From Luteimonas terricola (GTDB lineage Bacteria; Pseudomonadota; Gammaproteobacteria; Xanthomonadales; Xanthomonadaceae), in assembly GCF_004352845.1 (NCBI RefSeq), contig NZ_SJRX01000001.1, forward strand, positions 744,001 through 808,000: DNA of 64,000 nucleotides. The letters run 5' to 3'. Under the pieces are notes generated by a model that was not told the DNA's origin, did not search any database, and saw nothing but the letters and a program-made list of their open reading frames with translations. The translations under genes and the position numbers were made by a program. Positions 20,236-26,882 of the stretch are shown piece by piece (position 1 is the stretch's first letter; each line of letters opens with the position of its first letter).

Positions 20236-22140
20236 TCAGGGACCCCTCTCCGCGTGCATCCGGGCCATGAAATCGGCCAGCGGCATCGAGCCGAGGTCCT
20301 CTCCGGCACGCGTGCGCACGGCGACCGTGCCCTGTTCTTTCTCGCGGTCCCCCACCACGAGCAGGTACGGCACGCGCTGCAGCGTGTGCTCGCGGATCTT
20401 ATAGCCGATCTTCTCGTTCCGCAAATCGGATTCGACCCGGAGGCCTTGATCTGCAAGGGTTTTCCGGATGTCCTCGGCCCAGTCGGCCTGGGCGTCGGTG
20501 ATATTCATCACCACCGCCTGCACCGGGGCCAGCCAGGCGGGGAAGGCGCCGGCGTGCTGTTCGATCAGGATGCCGATGAAGCGCTCCATCGAGCCCACGA
20601 TGGCGCGGTGCAGCATGACCGGCGTGCGCTTCTGGCTGGCTTCGTCGACGTATTCCGCGCCAAGACGGCCCGGCATCATGAAATCGACCTGCATCGTGCC
20701 CAGCTGCCAGGTGCGGCCAATCGCGTCGCGCAGGTGGTATTCGACCTTGGGCCCGTAGAACGCGCCCTCGCCCGGCAGCTCCTGCCATTCGACCCCGGCG
20801 GCGGACAGCGCGGCGCGCAGGGCGGCCTCGGCCTTGTCCCAGGTGGCGTCGTCGCCCAGCCGGGGTTCCGGGCGCAGGGCCAGCTTGACCTGGACGTCGG
20901 TGAAGCCGAAATCGGCGTAGACCTTCATCGCCTGGGCGTGGAAGGCGGTGACCTCCGGCTCGATCTGCGACTCGGTGCAGAACACGTGGCCGTCGTCCTG
21001 GGTGAAGCCGCGCACGCGCAGGATGCCGTGCAGCGCGCCCGAGGGCTCGTTGCGGTGGCAGGCGCCGAACTCGCCGTAGCGGATCGGCAGGTCGCGGTAG
21101 CTGTGCAGGCCCTGGTTGAACACCTGCACGTGGCCGGGGCAGTTCATGGGCTTCACCGCATAGGTCCGCTTCTCGGACTCGGTGAAGAACATGTTCTCCT
21201 TGTAGTTGTCCCAGTGGCCGGACTTCTGCCACATGCTGACGTCGAGGATCTGCGGGCAGCGCACCTCGCCGTAGCCGCTCGAGCGGTAGACGCCGCGCAT
21301 GTACTGCTCGACCACCTGCCACAGTGCCCAGCCCTTGGGGTGCCAGAACACCAGGCCCGGGGCCTCTTCCTGCAGGTGGAACAGCTCCTGCTGCTTGCCG
21401 ATGCGGCGGTGGTCGCGCTTTTCGGCCTCTTCGATGCGCAGCACATAGGCCTTGAGCTGCTTCGCGTCGGCCCATGCGGTGCCGTAGATGCGCTGCAGCT
21501 GCTCGTTCTTCGCATCGCCGCGCCAGTAGGCGCCGGAGGTGCGCAGCAGCTTGAAGGCCTTCAGGAAGCGCGTGTTCGGCACGTGCGGGCCGCGGCACAT
21601 GTCGACGTATTCCTGGTGGTGGTACAGGCCCATGGCCGTGACCTCGGGACCCATGTCGTCGATCAGGCGCAGCTTGTAGTCCTCGCCGCGGGCCTCGAAC
21701 GTGGCGACCACCTCGTCGCGCGGGGTCATGCGCTTGATGACGTCGTATTCGGTGTCGATCAGCTCGCGCATGCGCTGCTCGATCGCCACCATGTCGTCGG
21801 GCGTGAAGGGCTGCTCGCGCCAGATGTCGTAGTAGAAGCCGTCCTCGATCACCGGCCCGATCACCATCTTGGCGTCCGGGTACAGCTGCTTGACCGCGTG
21901 TCCGACCAGGTGGGCGCAGGAGTGGCGGATGATCTCGACGCCCTCGGGGTCCTTCGGCGTAAGGATCTGAAGGCTCGCGTCGCGGTCGATGATGTCCGAG
22001 GCGTCGACCTGGCGGCCGTCGACCTTGCCGGCCACGGTGGCCTTGGCCAGGCCCGGGCCGATGGACTCGGCGACCTGCATGACGGTGACGGGGGCTTCGA
22101 ACTCGCGGCGGCTGCCGTCCGGGAGGGTGATCGTGATCAT
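20236..22140 (-). CDS. thrS: Threonyl-tRNA synthetase
   Basis: ThrS charges tRNA-Thr and is 634 residues here. Domains in order are TGS (about 1-62), the editing domain with [16 protein letters not shown] (His73/His77-type zinc-like motif) and a class II core. The core has [39 protein letters not shown] and [17 protein letters not shown]. The C-terminal anticodon-binding domain lies after [12 protein letters not shown]. infC follows after 92 bases. Ahead of the ATG is a leader containing an 8-codon frame with three Thr codons in a row and a Rho-independent terminator (see separate entries), so expression may respond to charged tRNA-Thr. Confidence 0.97.
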
Positions 22141-22185
22141 CTGGATAGGGGCGTCTGGTCTGTGGCGGGCGTACCCGCGGGCATC

Positions 22186-22211
22186 AAAAAGGCGCCACGC
22201 AGGCGCCTTCC
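22186..22211 (-). terminator. Leader terminator (candidate attenuator) upstream of thrS
   Basis: On the minus strand the stem AAGGCGCC/GGCGCCTT (22209-22202 with 22196-22189) has a 5-base loop and runs straight into TTTTT at 22190-22186. It sits 46 bases before the thrS start and 20 bases past the stop of the Thr-rich leader frame. This is the layout of a transcription attenuator. It could alternatively be the terminator of the type IV operon, but virB6 ends 150 bases earlier and a promoter lies between. Confidence 0.75.
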
Positions 22212-22231
22212 GGATCGGCCGCGGGCAGGTA

Positions 22232-22258
22232 TCAGCAGTGGGCGGTGGTAGTGCTCAT
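22232..22258 (-). CDS. Candidate threonine leader peptide MSTTTAHC
   Basis: The minus-strand frame ATG 22258 to TGA 22232 encodes eight residues with three consecutive Thr codons (ACT ACC ACC). It lies between the -10 at 22318-22323 and the terminator at 22186-22211. In amino-acid attenuators, a ribosome stalled at codons for the scarce residue prevents the terminator from forming; here low charged tRNA-Thr would raise ThrS. No strong Shine-Dalgarno sequence is visible ahead of the ATG, which lowers confidence. An antiterminator pairing was not established by eye. Confidence 0.6.
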
Positions 22259-22317
22259 GTCGCACGCTCGGCCGGCGCTGGGCGCGGGCCACCTTGTTCC
22301 GGAATGAAGCTCTCCCG

Positions 22318-22345
22318 ATTCTAGCCCAAATGGCGACCCTCAATG
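22318..22345 (-). promoter_or_regulatory. Promoter for the thrS leader transcript
   Basis: On the minus strand TAGAAT (22323-22318) is a good -10, with a weak CATTGA -35 (22345-22340) at 16-base spacing. Transcription would begin near 22311, giving a leader of about 170 bases before thrS and separating thrS from the type IV secretion operon that ends at 22361. Confidence 0.5.
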
Positions 22346-22360
22346 GCGGCACGACCCCGC

Positions 22361-23365
22361 TCAGCCACCCCGCCCCGCCACCCCGGGCGGCAGTCCCGAA
22401 CCCGGGGGCGGTGCTCCGCCGCCCCCGGTCGCGACGCCGACGGCGTTGTAGGGAGAGAACTGGCCCAGCACGCCGTTGAAGAACATCGCCGCCATGGGCG
22501 GCGCGCTGACGATCAGCATGGTCAGGATGATGCCCATGCCACCCTGCTGCATCGCCATCGATGACAGGCTCTCCTGCGTCCCGGGCAGGCCGACCAGATC
22601 CGCCACCCAGAACGCGAGGCCGACGGCGATCAGCATGTCCATCGCCAGCGTCACCATGACCGTGAGCAGGGCCAGGGAAAACAGCGTGCCCAGTCCGTAA
22701 TACAGCCATTTGCTGAACAGCTGCCGCGTGCCGCGGAACAGCAGGCACAGGATGAAGATCGGCCCCAGCCCGATCACCAGCGCGATCGCCACCTTGTTCA
22801 GCAGCAGCATGCCAGCCGCGACGATCGCGGGACCGCCGAGGCCGACGCCGGTGAACCACATTGCGCGCGACTTCCGCTGTTCGGTGAGCAGATCGCCACC
22901 CTCGTCGATGGCACCGATCACCTCCAGTGCCACCTGCATGATCGCCAGCGCCTTGTCGATATCCTGGTAGGCGCTCCCTTCCTGTCCGGTCACGACTTCG
23001 GACACCACCCCGGCCAGGCCATCGGTGAGCACGCGATAGATCGATCCGGTGCCGGCCGCGGAACCGGTGGCGATGCCGATGATCAGCACCGCCTTCAGCG
23101 AATCCCCGACCAGGGCCATCATCGGCTCGCGCGACAGGCCGGTGGCGATGCGGTAGCCCTGTACCAGGATCCACAGCGTGAGCAGGGTCAGCGCGGCACT
23201 CCCGGCCACGACCACCACGCGCCCGAGCAGGTTGCCGGCGAACTCGCCGATCTCGTCGTCGAGGAAGCTGTTGATCTCGTGGAAGAACACCATGTTGGGC
23301 AGCGACTGTGCCTGCGCCCAGTCCATGGCCACCGTCATGAGGCACGCCACGCTGTCGATCGCCAT
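22361..23365 (-). CDS. virB6: Type IV secretion inner-membrane protein VirB6
   Basis: This polytopic inner-membrane component has 334 residues and about five to six hydrophobic helices, with a Gly/Pro-rich C-terminal tail (GGGGAPPPGSG). VirB6 is the least conserved channel subunit; the assignment rests on membrane topology, the TrbL/VirB6-type segment around residues 35-80 and 170-300, and its position last in the virB operon. It is 10 bases downstream of virB5. The next minus-strand gene is the unrelated thrS, reached after its own promoter. Confidence 0.85.
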   Translation of the reverse strand: MAIDSVACLMTVAMDWAQAQSLPNMVFFHEINSFLDDEIGEFAGNLLGRVVVVAGSAALTLLTLWILVQGYRIATGLSREPMMALVGDSLKAVLIIGIATGSAAGTGSIYRVLTDGLAGVVSEVVTGQEGSAYQDIDKALAIMQVALEVIGAIDEGGDLLTEQRKSRAMWFTGVGLGGPAIVAAGMLLLNKVAIALVIGLGPIFILCLLFRGTRQLFSKWLYYGLGTLFSLALLTVMVTLAMDMLIAVGLAFWVADLVGLPGTQESLSSMAMQQGGMGIILTMLIVSAPPMAAMFFNGVLGQFSPYNAVGVATGGGGAPPPGSGLPPGVAGRGG

Positions 23366-23375
23366 CGCGGGCTCC

Positions 23376-24113
23376 TCAGCGGTCCCGCTCGCGAGCGGCC
23401 CGCAGTGCGAGCTTCAGCGCCACGCCCTGGACCAGCGCCCCACCCGGCTGTCCCTGCAGGGCCTCATTGGCCACGCGAACATGGTTTTCACGCAGGGCGC
23501 GCAGTGCAGTGTCGTACGCGGCCATCAGCCGTTCGCCGCTTTGCACGTCGTTCTGCAGCTGGCCCTGGATCGACAGGATCCGGTTGGTGTTGGACGCGAG
23601 CTTGCCCTCCTCCTCCTTGCCGATCGCTTCGCGCTCGGCATAGGCCGCCCGCAATTCCTCGTCCCGGTCATTGACGACCTCGAGCATGTCCACGATCGCG
23701 TTGAAGCGGCGGTTCTCGGTGCGCACGATGGACGTGCAGTAGGCGAACTGTTCCTCACCCTTCGCGTGCCTGGCAGGACCGGTACCGCAGCGCTTGACGA
23801 GGTCGGCGTCCGCGTCGCGCTTCTCGAAGTTCTCGCGATGCCCGGCGCTGCCGGAGTAGGCCGTGCCGGTCACCAGGGCCTGCTCGTACTGCTTGTTCAG
23901 CGTCTGCAGCTGCTCGAGCTGGCGCTGGTAGTCCTCGATCATCTGCCGGTACTGTGCCACCCAGCCGAGCGCTGTCTTCACCGTGTGCGGTACGTCGACG
24001 ACCGCCCACTGCGCCATCGCCGGGCCAGCGGCCAATGCACCGCAGAGCGCGAGTACCAGCCCACCCTTTCGACCGCACCGCCTGCGCGGCCCCCCGACTT
24101 CCCTGTCGTCCAT
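23376..24113 (-). CDS. virB5: VirB5-like pilus-associated protein
   Basis: This is an exported protein of 245 residues. The start at 24113 has AGGAG six bases ahead. A basic n-region (RRRCGRKGG), a hydrophobic core and a cleavage site after GPAMA form a Sec signal. The mature protein is almost entirely helical, with a coiled-coil stretch (YRQMIEDYQRQLEQLQTLNKQYEQAL) and two cysteines (C149-, C167-like positions) that may pair. VirB5 is the minor component at the pilus tip. Sequence identity in this family is low; the call uses topology, coiled coil and its place between virB4 and virB6. Confidence 0.78.
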   Translation of the reverse strand: MDDREVGGPRRRCGRKGGLVLALCGALAAGPAMAQWAVVDVPHTVKTALGWVAQYRQMIEDYQRQLEQLQTLNKQYEQALVTGTAYSGSAGHRENFEKRDADADLVKRCGTGPARHAKGEEQFAYCTSIVRTENRRFNAIVDMLEVVNDRDEELRAAYAEREAIGKEEEGKLASNTNRILSIQGQLQNDVQSGERLMAAYDTALRALRENHVRVANEALQGQPGGALVQGVALKLALRAARERDR

Positions 24114-24141
24114 GTCCCACTCCTTGGGTTGAAACGATGTC

Positions 24142-26580
24142 CTACGCGACCGATACGTCCGCACGCCTGCCCTTGCGTCGCAGCTGGAACTCCGCAAGCC
24201 ATTGCTCGGGCCGCAGCGCGTCCGCGGGCGCGCCAATGGCGACGGCCCTTTCCGTGATGACCTGGTGCATGACTTCGATGTTGTCGGTGGATGCCGAGAT
24301 CACCGCGAGCACGTCGTCCATGCCTCCCAGGTCCAGGCGACACACCGCCGAGGCATGACCCTGCTTGACCAGGAAGCAGCGCGAGCGCTCGTCGAGCGAG
24401 ACCACCACCCGGTACTCGGCGTCGGTGAGCTTCAGGCCTTCGACGTAGTCCTTGCGGCTGGCGTTCGGGTTCGGCAGCAGGACGAGGGTGGCGGTCTGCT
24501 CGACCAGGGCCGCGGCGATGTCGCTGGCCAGCGCGTCTTCCGGGCTCTGGGTGGCGAAGATCCCCAGTCCGTTCTGCTTGCGGATGGTCTTCTGCTTGTT
24601 GCGCGCGAACTCCTTGAGCGCACCGCCGCCTTCGAGGATCTTCCAGAACTCGTCCATGACGTAGACCAGGCGCCGGCCGTCGATGATCCCTTCCAGCCGG
24701 TGCAGCAGGTAGCGCACCACGGGCACCCTGACCTCGGCGTTGTCGAGGATCTCGGTGTAGTCGAAGCCGATGATGTTCGCGCGCGACAGGTCGACGGTGT
24801 CTTCGGGATTGTCGAACACCCAGCCCAGGCTGTTGCCCGCGGTCCATTTTCGCAGGCGCGCGTAGAGCCCGTCATCGCCCATGTTGGGCAGGCTCTTCTG
24901 CAGGTTCGCCATGCTGCGCAGGTGCATGGGCGTGTCGAGGATGCCTTCGACCGCCCGGTGCACGTCCTCGTCCTCGCGCGCGGTGTAGACGGGCTTGCCG
25001 GCGAGCAGCTTCACCAGTTCGGCGAGGAACTGGACGTTGGCTTCGCTGCGTTCGCATTGCAGGGGGTTGAAACCCGTCGGGCGTCCATTCTCGAGCGCGA
25101 GGTAGTTGCCGCCGCATGCACGCACGAAGATCTCCGCGCCGCGGTCCTTGTCGAAGAAGAACACGGTGGGTGCGGGATCGAGCTTCTGCGACTGGGCGAG
25201 CAGGAAATTGACCAGCGCTGTCTTGCCGGTGCCGGACTTGCCGATCACCAGGGTGTTGCCCAGCGCCTTCTCGTCGAGGGAATCCTCGGCCGGATGGGTG
25301 GCATGGAAGTTGAAGTAATAGGGTTGGCCGTTGCTCGCCTGCAGCGTGGTCACGCAGTCGCCCCAGGGATTGCGCGTCCGCTTGCCGGTGGCGAAGTTGT
25401 GCAGCGGCGACAGGCCGAGGAAATTGAGCGAGCTGAGGTTCGCCAGCCGCGTCCGGTAGCGCCAGTTTCCGGGCAGCTGGGCGTAGAAGGCCGACGCCAC
25501 CGCCAGGTCCTCCTTGGCCGACACGAAGCCGGCATTCGAAAGCTCGGCGCGCGCATCGGCGACGTGGCGCGACAGCGCCTCCTGGCTGCCGGCATGGATG
25601 GCCAACGAGAAGTGGTACTCGCCAAGCACGAAGTTGCCTGACGCAAGCTCGTCCATGGCCTGGTCGAGCTCGGCGATCTGGCTGACCGCCCGGTCGCCCG
25701 ACGACACCATCATGCCCTTGGTGCGGTCGAGCACGCGCAGGGCGTCCTGCCGCCCCATGGGGCTGAAGGATTGCGTGAGTACATACTCGAAGCCCAGGTA
25801 CTTCAGGCCGTTGAGGATCCCGGGCCAGGTGGCGTCGGTGTACTCCTTCACGTTGAGGATGGCGCCGTAATGGTGGCCGCCCGAAGGCGTGGCGACCACG
25901 AAGTCACCCGTCCGCGCGGAGAAGGTGTGGCGACTGGTTGGGAGGTAGTCGGCGATGGCCGCCGGCAATACCGGCACCGGCTCGTCGAGACGATTCAACA
26001 CGTAACCATAGAGTTCGAGCACTTCCGAGAACACGACGCCGTTGTCGCGTTCATACGTCCCCAGGCGTCGCGGTGAGTAGTCCTTGAGCACGGCCTCGAC
26101 GTTGCCCGCCAGCTCATGCAGGCGATCGACGGCCTGCCGCTCGATGACCCGGAGGCGCGCAAGGTCCGCCGAGCGCTCGACCAGGCGGCGACCGGCCACG
26201 ACGGGGCGGTAGATCATGGTCAGGAAGAGTTCGTTCTGAAGCGACTCCTTCTCCGCCAGCGACGCGAAGTACGCGTCCGAGAGCGCCTGGTTGAAGGCGC
26301 CGTCGAAGTGCCCGCCGCCCTGGATCTTCCGGCGCCGGCGGATGTCGTGGGTCCAGAACGCGACGTTCGCAAAGTCCGGCGCGCGCAGCGTCTGCAGCAT
26401 GCGGTTGAAGGTCGCATGCCGATGCTCCAGCTCCCATTCCTCGCGCCCGACGAACGGCAGTCCGTCGAGCCGCCACGCGACCAGGTAATCGCCGCCGGTG
26501 GTCTTGACCACGTCATCGGCGACATGGCTCGACAGCGGCACGAAGCCACCGACGGCGACATCGGCAAGCACCGCGTTCAC
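24142..26580 (-). CDS. virB4: Type IV secretion ATPase VirB4
   Basis: VirB4 is the large inner-membrane ATPase that powers pilus assembly and substrate transfer. The product is 812 residues from the GTG at 26580, which overlaps the virB3 stop (GTGA). The N-terminal half is the VirB4-specific domain. Walker A GKSGTGKT lies at 447-454 and Walker B near LVYVMDEFWKIL. The later motif IFATQSPEDAL is normal for the family. The start choice makes the N-terminus VNAVLADVAVGGFVPLSSHV, where family similarity begins; an ATG far upstream would run through virB3. Confidence 0.95.
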   Translation of the reverse strand: MNAVLADVAVGGFVPLSSHVADDVVKTTGGDYLVAWRLDGLPFVGREEWELEHRHATFNRMLQTLRAPDFANVAFWTHDIRRRRKIQGGGHFDGAFNQALSDAYFASLAEKESLQNELFLTMIYRPVVAGRRLVERSADLARLRVIERQAVDRLHELAGNVEAVLKDYSPRRLGTYERDNGVVFSEVLELYGYVLNRLDEPVPVLPAAIADYLPTSRHTFSARTGDFVVATPSGGHHYGAILNVKEYTDATWPGILNGLKYLGFEYVLTQSFSPMGRQDALRVLDRTKGMMVSSGDRAVSQIAELDQAMDELASGNFVLGEYHFSLAIHAGSQEALSRHVADARAELSNAGFVSAKEDLAVASAFYAQLPGNWRYRTRLANLSSLNFLGLSPLHNFATGKRTRNPWGDCVTTLQASNGQPYYFNFHATHPAEDSLDEKALGNTLVIGKSGTGKTALVNFLLAQSQKLDPAPTVFFFDKDRGAEIFVRACGGNYLALENGRPTGFNPLQCERSEANVQFLAELVKLLAGKPVYTAREDEDVHRAVEGILDTPMHLRSMANLQKSLPNMGDDGLYARLRKWTAGNSLGWVFDNPEDTVDLSRANIIGFDYTEILDNAEVRVPVVRYLLHRLEGIIDGRRLVYVMDEFWKILEGGGALKEFARNKQKTIRKQNGLGIFATQSPEDALASDIAAALVEQTATLVLLPNPNASRKDYVEGLKLTDAEYRVVVSLDERSRCFLVKQGHASAVCRLDLGGMDDVLAVISASTDNIEVMHQVITERAVAIGAPADALRPEQWLAEFQLRRKGRRADVSVA

Positions 26581-26882
26581 CGGCGCGTCCCGGGATCGCG
26601 CCCGGCGATCGGCGCGAAGGACCAGTCGCCGCCGCGCAGCGCGCGGTTGCGCACCCTGGCGCGGAGCTGCCAGCGCAGCCCCAGCAGCCGGAACACCATC
26701 TCGTCGCGGCGCGCCATCTGCCGCATGGCCAGTATCACCAGGGGCATCAGTACGAGCAGGAGCAGGTTGACGTACACCGCAAGCAGCAGGCATGCCCCCG
26801 CGCCGATGAAGAACGGCACGTAGGGCACGCCAAGGAACATGGCCGGCCGCGTGCATCCGCGGAAGAGCACGTCCTTACGCAT
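26577..26882 (-). CDS. virB3: Type IV secretion protein VirB3
   Basis: This is a small inner-membrane protein of 101 residues. It opens with RKDVLFRGCTRPAMFLGVPYVPF, a clear VirB3 signature, followed by two hydrophobic segments (about 16-55) and a basic C-terminal tail. VirB3 associates with VirB4 in the inner-membrane complex. It overlaps virB2 by 8 bases and virB4 by 4 bases, so all three are translationally coupled. Confidence 0.93.
   Translation of the reverse strand: MRKDVLFRGCTRPAMFLGVPYVPFFIGAGACLLLAVYVNLLLLVLMPLVILAMRQMARRDEMVFRLLGLRWQLRARVRNRALRGGDWSFAPIAGRDPGTRR

Follow-up and report, generated by a model that had tools for sequence, protein, structure and literature searches.

In E. 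coli, threonyl-tRNA synthetase (ThrRS) is a textbook example of an enzyme that regulates its own translation through tRNA mimicry, and in Firmicutes the T-box leaders of thrS sense the charging of tRNA-Thr directly, without a peptide, and act on transcription termination. A further kind of control is the attenuation of pheST (with its leader gene pheM) and of amino acid operons, in which a short open reading frame (ORF) containing codons for the sensed amino acid is combined with a terminator and an alternative pairing; pheM is annotated in E. coli K-12. According to the excerpted text of PMC3858243, E. coli ThrRS binds two hairpins of thrS and prevents 30S binding. Leader-peptide attenuation of synthetase genes is a known kind of regulation: the excerpts of PMC1262725 mention it for pheST in gammaproteobacteria and for the Streptomyces genes trpS and leuS, and a Thr-dependent leader peptide, thrL, has already been proposed 5' of thrS in Streptomyces lividans (PMC8079986, in excerpt). 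The excerpted text of PMC2965389 mentions threonyl-tRNA synthetase only for the E. coli autoregulation, and our literature search, with Vitreschak 2004 on proteobacterial attenuators outside its scope, returned no thrS leader peptide for the group considered here. As far as the literature was searched, the thrS member described below, its spread, the apparent replacement of one circuit by another and the start-site module appear to be new.

The locus lies in the window, by which we mean the whole 64,000-nucleotide stretch of Luteimonas terricola DNA that was analysed, and is read from the minus strand in the following order:

22318..22323, minus strand: -10-like TAGAAT, probable leader promoter (from the sequence and from the comparison of promoter matches in relatives)
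22289..22295, minus strand: AAGGTGG, probable ribosome-binding sequence of the leader ORF (AGGTG or AGGA stands at this position in most rows of A1)
22270..22290, minus strand: hairpin 1 (GGCC...GGCC), between the ribosome-binding sequence and the leader ATG (from compensatory changes)
22259..22269, minus strand: linker GAGCGTGCGAC, abutting the leader ATG, with the consensus NAGYGTGYGAC (from the pattern in relatives)
22258-22232, minus strand: leader ORF, ATG AGC ACT ACC ACC GCC CAC TGC TGA, encoding MSTTTAHC (from the sequence and 145 ORFs)
22219..22223, minus strand: predicted antiterminator 5' strand CGCGG, with its partner at 22198-22202 (from the fold with the ribosome on the Thr codons)
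22198..22202, minus strand: predicted antiterminator 3' strand CTGCG, overlapping the 5' arm and loop of the terminator (from the fold and from matched changes in relatives)
22191..22209, minus strand: terminator stem-loop AAGGCGCC-TGCGT-GGCGCC (from our own terminator search and pair covariation)
22186..22190, minus strand: T5 run of the terminator (from the sequence)
20236..22140, minus strand: thrS, threonyl-tRNA synthetase, the probable regulated gene (Pfam TGS, tRNA_SAD, tRNA-synt_2b, HGTP_anticodon)

Part of this layout had been described in the initial annotation, and after rechecking of the coordinates it is borne out: the MSTTTAHC frame and the G+C-rich terminator are in place, the extended terminator stem (GGAAGGCGCC) starts 20 bases 3' of the leader stop, and 46 bases separate the end of the T-run from the thrS ATG (22140). 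A strict terminator scan did not list this terminator, which has -16.5 kcal/mol in a separate terminator search. The TAGAAT of the claimed promoter is present; its -35 is poor, and a strict promoter scan gave no match in the window leader. Among 95 relatives, the best promoter match 5' of the element averages 6.9 of 12, compared to 4.1 in shuffled sequence. The codons ACT ACC ACC of the leader are presumed to be the regulatory ones.

We propose that the thrS leader is very likely a ribosome-mediated transcription attenuator responding to charged Thr-tRNA, as had been suggested from the window alone; this reading is now strengthened by the conservation of the frame and its Thr codons, by a terminator that is mostly kept and by an antiterminator in the window's family. 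Sequence comparison supports the leader frame with its Thr codons, the terminator and hairpin 1, and within the window's family it also supports the pairing of the antiterminator; we infer the translation, the stalling, the direction of the response and the cotranscription downstream. Transcription would start a short way past TAGAAT, roughly 15-20 bases 5' of AAGGTGG, and a ribosome would start on the 8-codon frame. With ample Thr-tRNA, this ribosome would arrive at the stop codon and cover the bases just 3' of it, the terminator (22209-22186) would form, and transcription would end before thrS. With Thr-tRNA in short supply, it would stall on the ACT/ACC codons at positions 3-5 and leave the post-stop bases free; these would pair with the loop and the upper part of the terminator 5' arm, blocking the terminator so that thrS would be made, along with any genes cotranscribed behind it.

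Genes for IF3, PheS and PheT follow thrS (Pfam), and by eye an L20-like ORF lies between genes downstream of thrS. Unusual start codons are expected of IF3 genes, and the infC of the window is without an ATG at its conserved N-terminus; an AUC (window 20143-20141) a few bases past GGAG is its likely start. Just before pheS (window 18751-18705) lies a hairpin, GGGGAAGG...CCTTCCCC, followed by the T-rich ATGTTTCGTTTTGG, with two Phe codons. Directly 5' of the thrS leader (window 22361-26856) are type IV secretion or conjugation genes (TrbL/VirB6, VirB4/TrbE). An overlapping frame that starts with GTG (window 22137-22265) crosses the leader, and its end falls on the thrS ATGA; in G+C-rich DNA, chance alone often leaves such frames open.

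The element is widespread in two families. In the window's family, thrS was found in all 149 genomes sampled, and when the upstream DNA of 110 of the family's thrS loci was compared, the element, GNGYGACATG followed by a short frame, stood 5' of thrS in 106 of them. A covariance model of the element, R1, has one match in the window's own genome at 5.1e-13, with the next best at 2.86. Of 299 genomes of the order, 149 match it, each exactly once, and with a single exception these lie in two families; the matches in the class, found in 5 of 369 genomes, all belong to the same two families. When 40 R1 matches from outside the window's family were fetched, a thrS start was found behind every one, and 39 had the pattern with a short closed frame. 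A pattern scan of named genomes gave at least 120 stretches, and among the matches listed (80) are Xanthomonas, Stenotrophomonas, Pseudoxanthomonas, Lysobacter, Luteimonas, Thermomonas, Arenimonas, Rhodanobacter, Dyella, Frateuria, similar genera and a few metagenome bins.

Conservation of the leader ORF was followed in 145 frames, 106 from the window's family and 39 from outside it, the latter required to be closed in fewer than 20 codons. The frame and its Thr codons are kept in relatives, the point on which the initial annotation had placed its check: codon 3 is Thr in 144 of the 145 and codon 4 in 127 (ACC 103, ACG 14, ACA 6, ACT 4, with all four Thr codons used), and codon 5 is Thr in 56. 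Most frames contain two or three Thr codons; ten contain fewer than two, and the frame of one locus, L022, contains none. Their length is 5-9 codons, with one of 12, and they end on TGA (135), TAG (6) or TAA (4). All 145 have an in-frame stop at codons 5-13, as against none in the +1 frame and 6 in the +2 frame. Together with the synonymous changes at codon 4, these features support the view that the leader frame is translated, as judged from its evolution. A close relative, L002, has a terminator 5' of thrS and no leader ORF of such kind.

We note a bias in codon 3, which is ACT in 137 of the 145 frames (window 22252-22250); ACT is rare, with 4 occurrences among the 122 Thr codons of five genes in the window.

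Might the arrangement be a coincidence, a short frame that happens to stand next to an unrelated terminator of the upstream gene? The folding energy of the window leader alone is unremarkable (z -1.47), as such an explanation would have it. Against it stand the conservation across two families, the frame specificity of the stops, the compensatory pairs and the background: a short ATG frame with two adjacent Thr codons and then a strict terminator occurs 73 times in 1246 kb (both strands of 80 named loci, which were chosen for holding the element), and 70 of these are the thrS element itself, leaving 3 as background. We regard chance as hardly credible.

The terminator, whose conservation the initial annotation had also proposed to check, is kept in most relatives but not in all. 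In the window's family a strict terminator is present in 77 of 106 loci and a lenient rule adds 15 more, some of them poor, giving 92 of 106; the other 14 keep the leader ORF and linker without a recognisable terminator (L048, L050, L054, L007, L009, L011 and L014 are among them). In 66 of the 77 strict cases, the stem starts 44-56 bases 3' of the leader ATG. Among 50 relatives, 94% of the cells in the terminator pairs are paired and 3 of 7 pairs have double changes. Outside the window's family, 36 of 39 loci have a strict terminator. The 14 loci, and the 3 of 39 outside the family that are without a strict terminator, fit an alternative in which the leader ORF works by translational attenuation, controlling access to the thrS start, or by way of Rho, with the intrinsic terminator perhaps only an optional extra. 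The strict or lenient terminator at 92 of 106 loci and the matched antiterminator changes in the window's family speak against this alternative, which we consider quite unlikely.

The antiterminator had been left unestablished in the initial annotation. With a ribosome on codons 3-4, pairing is possible between the bases past the stop (consensus CGAGG) and the terminator top (CCTCG), and by eye there are matched versions in individual lineages, CCAGG/CCTGG in L013, L026, L059 and L089 and ATTGG/CCAAT in L105. In the window, the pairing of CGCGG (22223-22219) with CTGCG (22202-22198) is predicted at -10.2 kcal/mol with the ribosome stalled on the Thr codons and at -4.3 with the ribosome on the stop, the ribosome positions in these folds being assumed. 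Being weaker than its terminator (-16.5), the window antiterminator would have to form first in order to prevail; the balance favours the antiterminator in 43 of 77 loci of the window's family and in 11 of 36 of the second family.

Minimum energies of the stalled leaders showed no excess over those with shuffled spacers (mean z +0.13, 77 loci), and after this null result a swap test, pair counts and pairing probability were used for the antiterminator. In the swap test, complementarity within a locus exceeded that with swapped partners in the window's family (p<=0.00005 for 77 loci; p 0.0016 for 40 de-duplicated ones), but no excess was found in the second family (p 0.64-0.82; z +0.9 for 36 loci and p 0.64 for 20 de-duplicated ones). 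In the antiterminator columns, 83.1% of the cells are paired compared to 78.5% after shuffling, and 12 cells have double changes compared to 5.3. Double changes occur in 4 of 6 antiterminator pairs, a count that 118 of 500 shuffles also attain; double-change cells number 14 and 13 in two slid versions of the pairing, against the 12. With the ribosome on the Thr codons, the pairing of the arm in the window's family is 0.64, as opposed to 0.51 with shuffled spacers. Moving the ribosome to the stop lowers it by 0.19, compared to 0.10 with shuffled spacers; in the second family, where the pairing can be drawn, the drop is 0.089 against 0.076. Some of any such drop is built into the test, since a ribosome at the stop leaves fewer bases available. 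In loci with 6-codon frames (L020, L041, L047), the antiterminator keeps a fixed distance to the ATG and not to the stop, making its masking by a terminating ribosome less clear. Taken for the window's family, the swap test and the matched changes support a mutually exclusive antiterminator that would be governed by ribosome position; for the second family, the swap test is not significant.

The part of the leader in front of the ATG has its own signature. In hairpin 1, all five tested pairs show compensatory changes among 82 relatives, 93.4% of the cells are paired compared to 81.6% after shuffling, double-change cells number 30 compared to 5.0, and the covariation is 0.319 compared to 0.122. 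Between hairpin 1 and the leader ATG the linker NAGYGTGYGAC (window 22259-22269) is strongly conserved; its invariance and that of the ATG in A1 are partly by construction because the rows were chosen by that pattern, and the count of 106 in 110 family loci is the fairer measure. The TGYG within the linker resembles an RNA polymerase pause consensus, a likeness offered as an idea only. Two other pairings were rejected by eye: a hairpin across the start codon, GTGC-GACATGA-GCAC, is broken by several codon-2 variants, and a GGTGG-CTACC pairing is lost where the ribosome-binding sequence is AGGAA. The CGTG/CATG pairs of the RNAalifold structure give no covariation test because their letters are invariant.

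By eye, the stem of hairpin 1, GGTGGCC...GGCC, resembles the operator stem GTGGCC...GGCCAC of other gammaproteobacteria. This raises the alternative of ThrRS feedback on a tRNA-like leader, in which ThrRS would bind the hairpin before the ORF and block translation, and E. coli thrS is under such ThrRS control (PMC3858243, in excerpt). In other gammaproteobacteria, a hairpin like GTGGCC-tctCGTAtc-GGCCAC is common just 5' of thrS, and a model of this operator hairpin, R2 (6 pairs, 3 of them with double changes), matches 34 of 68 of their loci at E<=0.01, 24 of the 34 having been used to train it. R2 also finds thrS of E. coli K-12 (35.4 bits), which was absent from its training, unlike a Blast of the operator sequence against E. 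coli, which gave no match; yet among 190 loci of the order the model of this CGU-loop hairpin has no match at E<=1. Moreover, hairpin 1 is without the CGU loop in most A1 rows and sits before the leader ORF, not at the start of thrS. With these results, ThrRS feedback at the present leader seems very improbable. At two loci of other gammaproteobacteria, L309 and L316, two and three operator-like hairpin matches, respectively, stand in tandem 5' of thrS.

Reading of Thr codons by a leader peptide may extend beyond the two families. Forty upstream regions of thrS from the order that have no R1 match were compared by a fixed rule, under which the last 260 bases had to contain an ATG frame 5-16 codons long whose Thr codons were adjacent, spaced by one or at least three in number. 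Thr mini-frames of other sequence were found in 25 of the 40, 15 in the first 20 loci and 10 in the second 20, whereas shuffles of the first 20 gave 0.85 by the same rule. MTRTGTPD, MNVSFRTTT, MCQQATTTTTP and MKTTTKN are examples, and MTRVTLSNH (L159) and MTRGTGNH (L162), which lie outside the rule, are of the same kind by sequence. Where a terminator was called, its stem starts 21-32 bases past the stop (in L164 by eye). No Thr mini-frame was found in L166, L170 and L174 among the first 20 loci, in any of the 7 loci of family f9 or in three of the five loci of family f8. In other gammaproteobacteria, such frames occur in 5 of 68 loci compared to 2.85 expected from shuffles, about the level of chance. 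A terminator-based survey of Thr leaders outside the order, covering the 26 of 68 loci with a terminator, yielded a handful of frames (L317, L333, L337) that were long or overlapped a tRNA and that we found unconvincing.

The simplest reading of this distribution, from which its direction is drawn, is that leader-peptide attenuation took the place of the ThrRS operator in the order. Within E. coli's own class, much of an order appears to have swapped tRNA mimicry for a leader peptide that reads charged Thr-tRNA, and if so, this would be a clear example of a gene exchanging one feedback circuit for another, in a group covering Xanthomonas, Stenotrophomonas, Lysobacter, Rhodanobacter and Dyella. 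One may go a step further and consider, jointly with an order-wide replacement of an ancestral ThrRS-binding operator by Thr leader peptides, that hairpin 1, the NAGYGTGYGAC linker and the near-invariant rare ACT form an RNA module of their own, marking the two-family attenuator as a distinct variant and acting, for example, as a transcription pause or a start-site gate that times ribosome loading. We hold this joint proposal tentatively and lean somewhat against it. If true, a start module would explain how as few as two or three Thr codons can be enough and why loci that have lost the terminator still keep the module.

How, then, does the leader compare with the systems described before? With the E. 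coli thrS operator it shares the gene and the need, more ThrRS when ThrRS is short, but the operator senses free ThrRS and acts on translation, and its hairpin is the one not found in the 190 loci of the order. A T-box likewise senses tRNA-Thr charging and acts on transcription termination, and differs in sensing the tRNA directly with no peptide; an Rfam search with the window leader gave no T-box match at E<=5 and nothing at the cut-off, its one match at E<=5 having 13.8 bits against a cut-off of 50. The S. lividans thrL, as described in the excerpts of PMC8079986, belongs to an actinobacterium and has an 18-residue peptide of unrelated sequence with two Thr, on a leaderless transcript; termination is there said to be unclear, with one hairpin and no U-rich stretch. 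With pheM and the amino acid operon attenuators it shares a short ORF with codons for the sensed amino acid, a terminator behind them, an alternative pairing and, as for pheM, a synthetase that would be under the control of tRNA charging. The present leader differs from these in that the gene is thrS, in that the frame has 5-9 codons (12 in one case), mostly with two or three for Thr, and in the covarying hairpin placed between the ribosome-binding sequence and the ATG.
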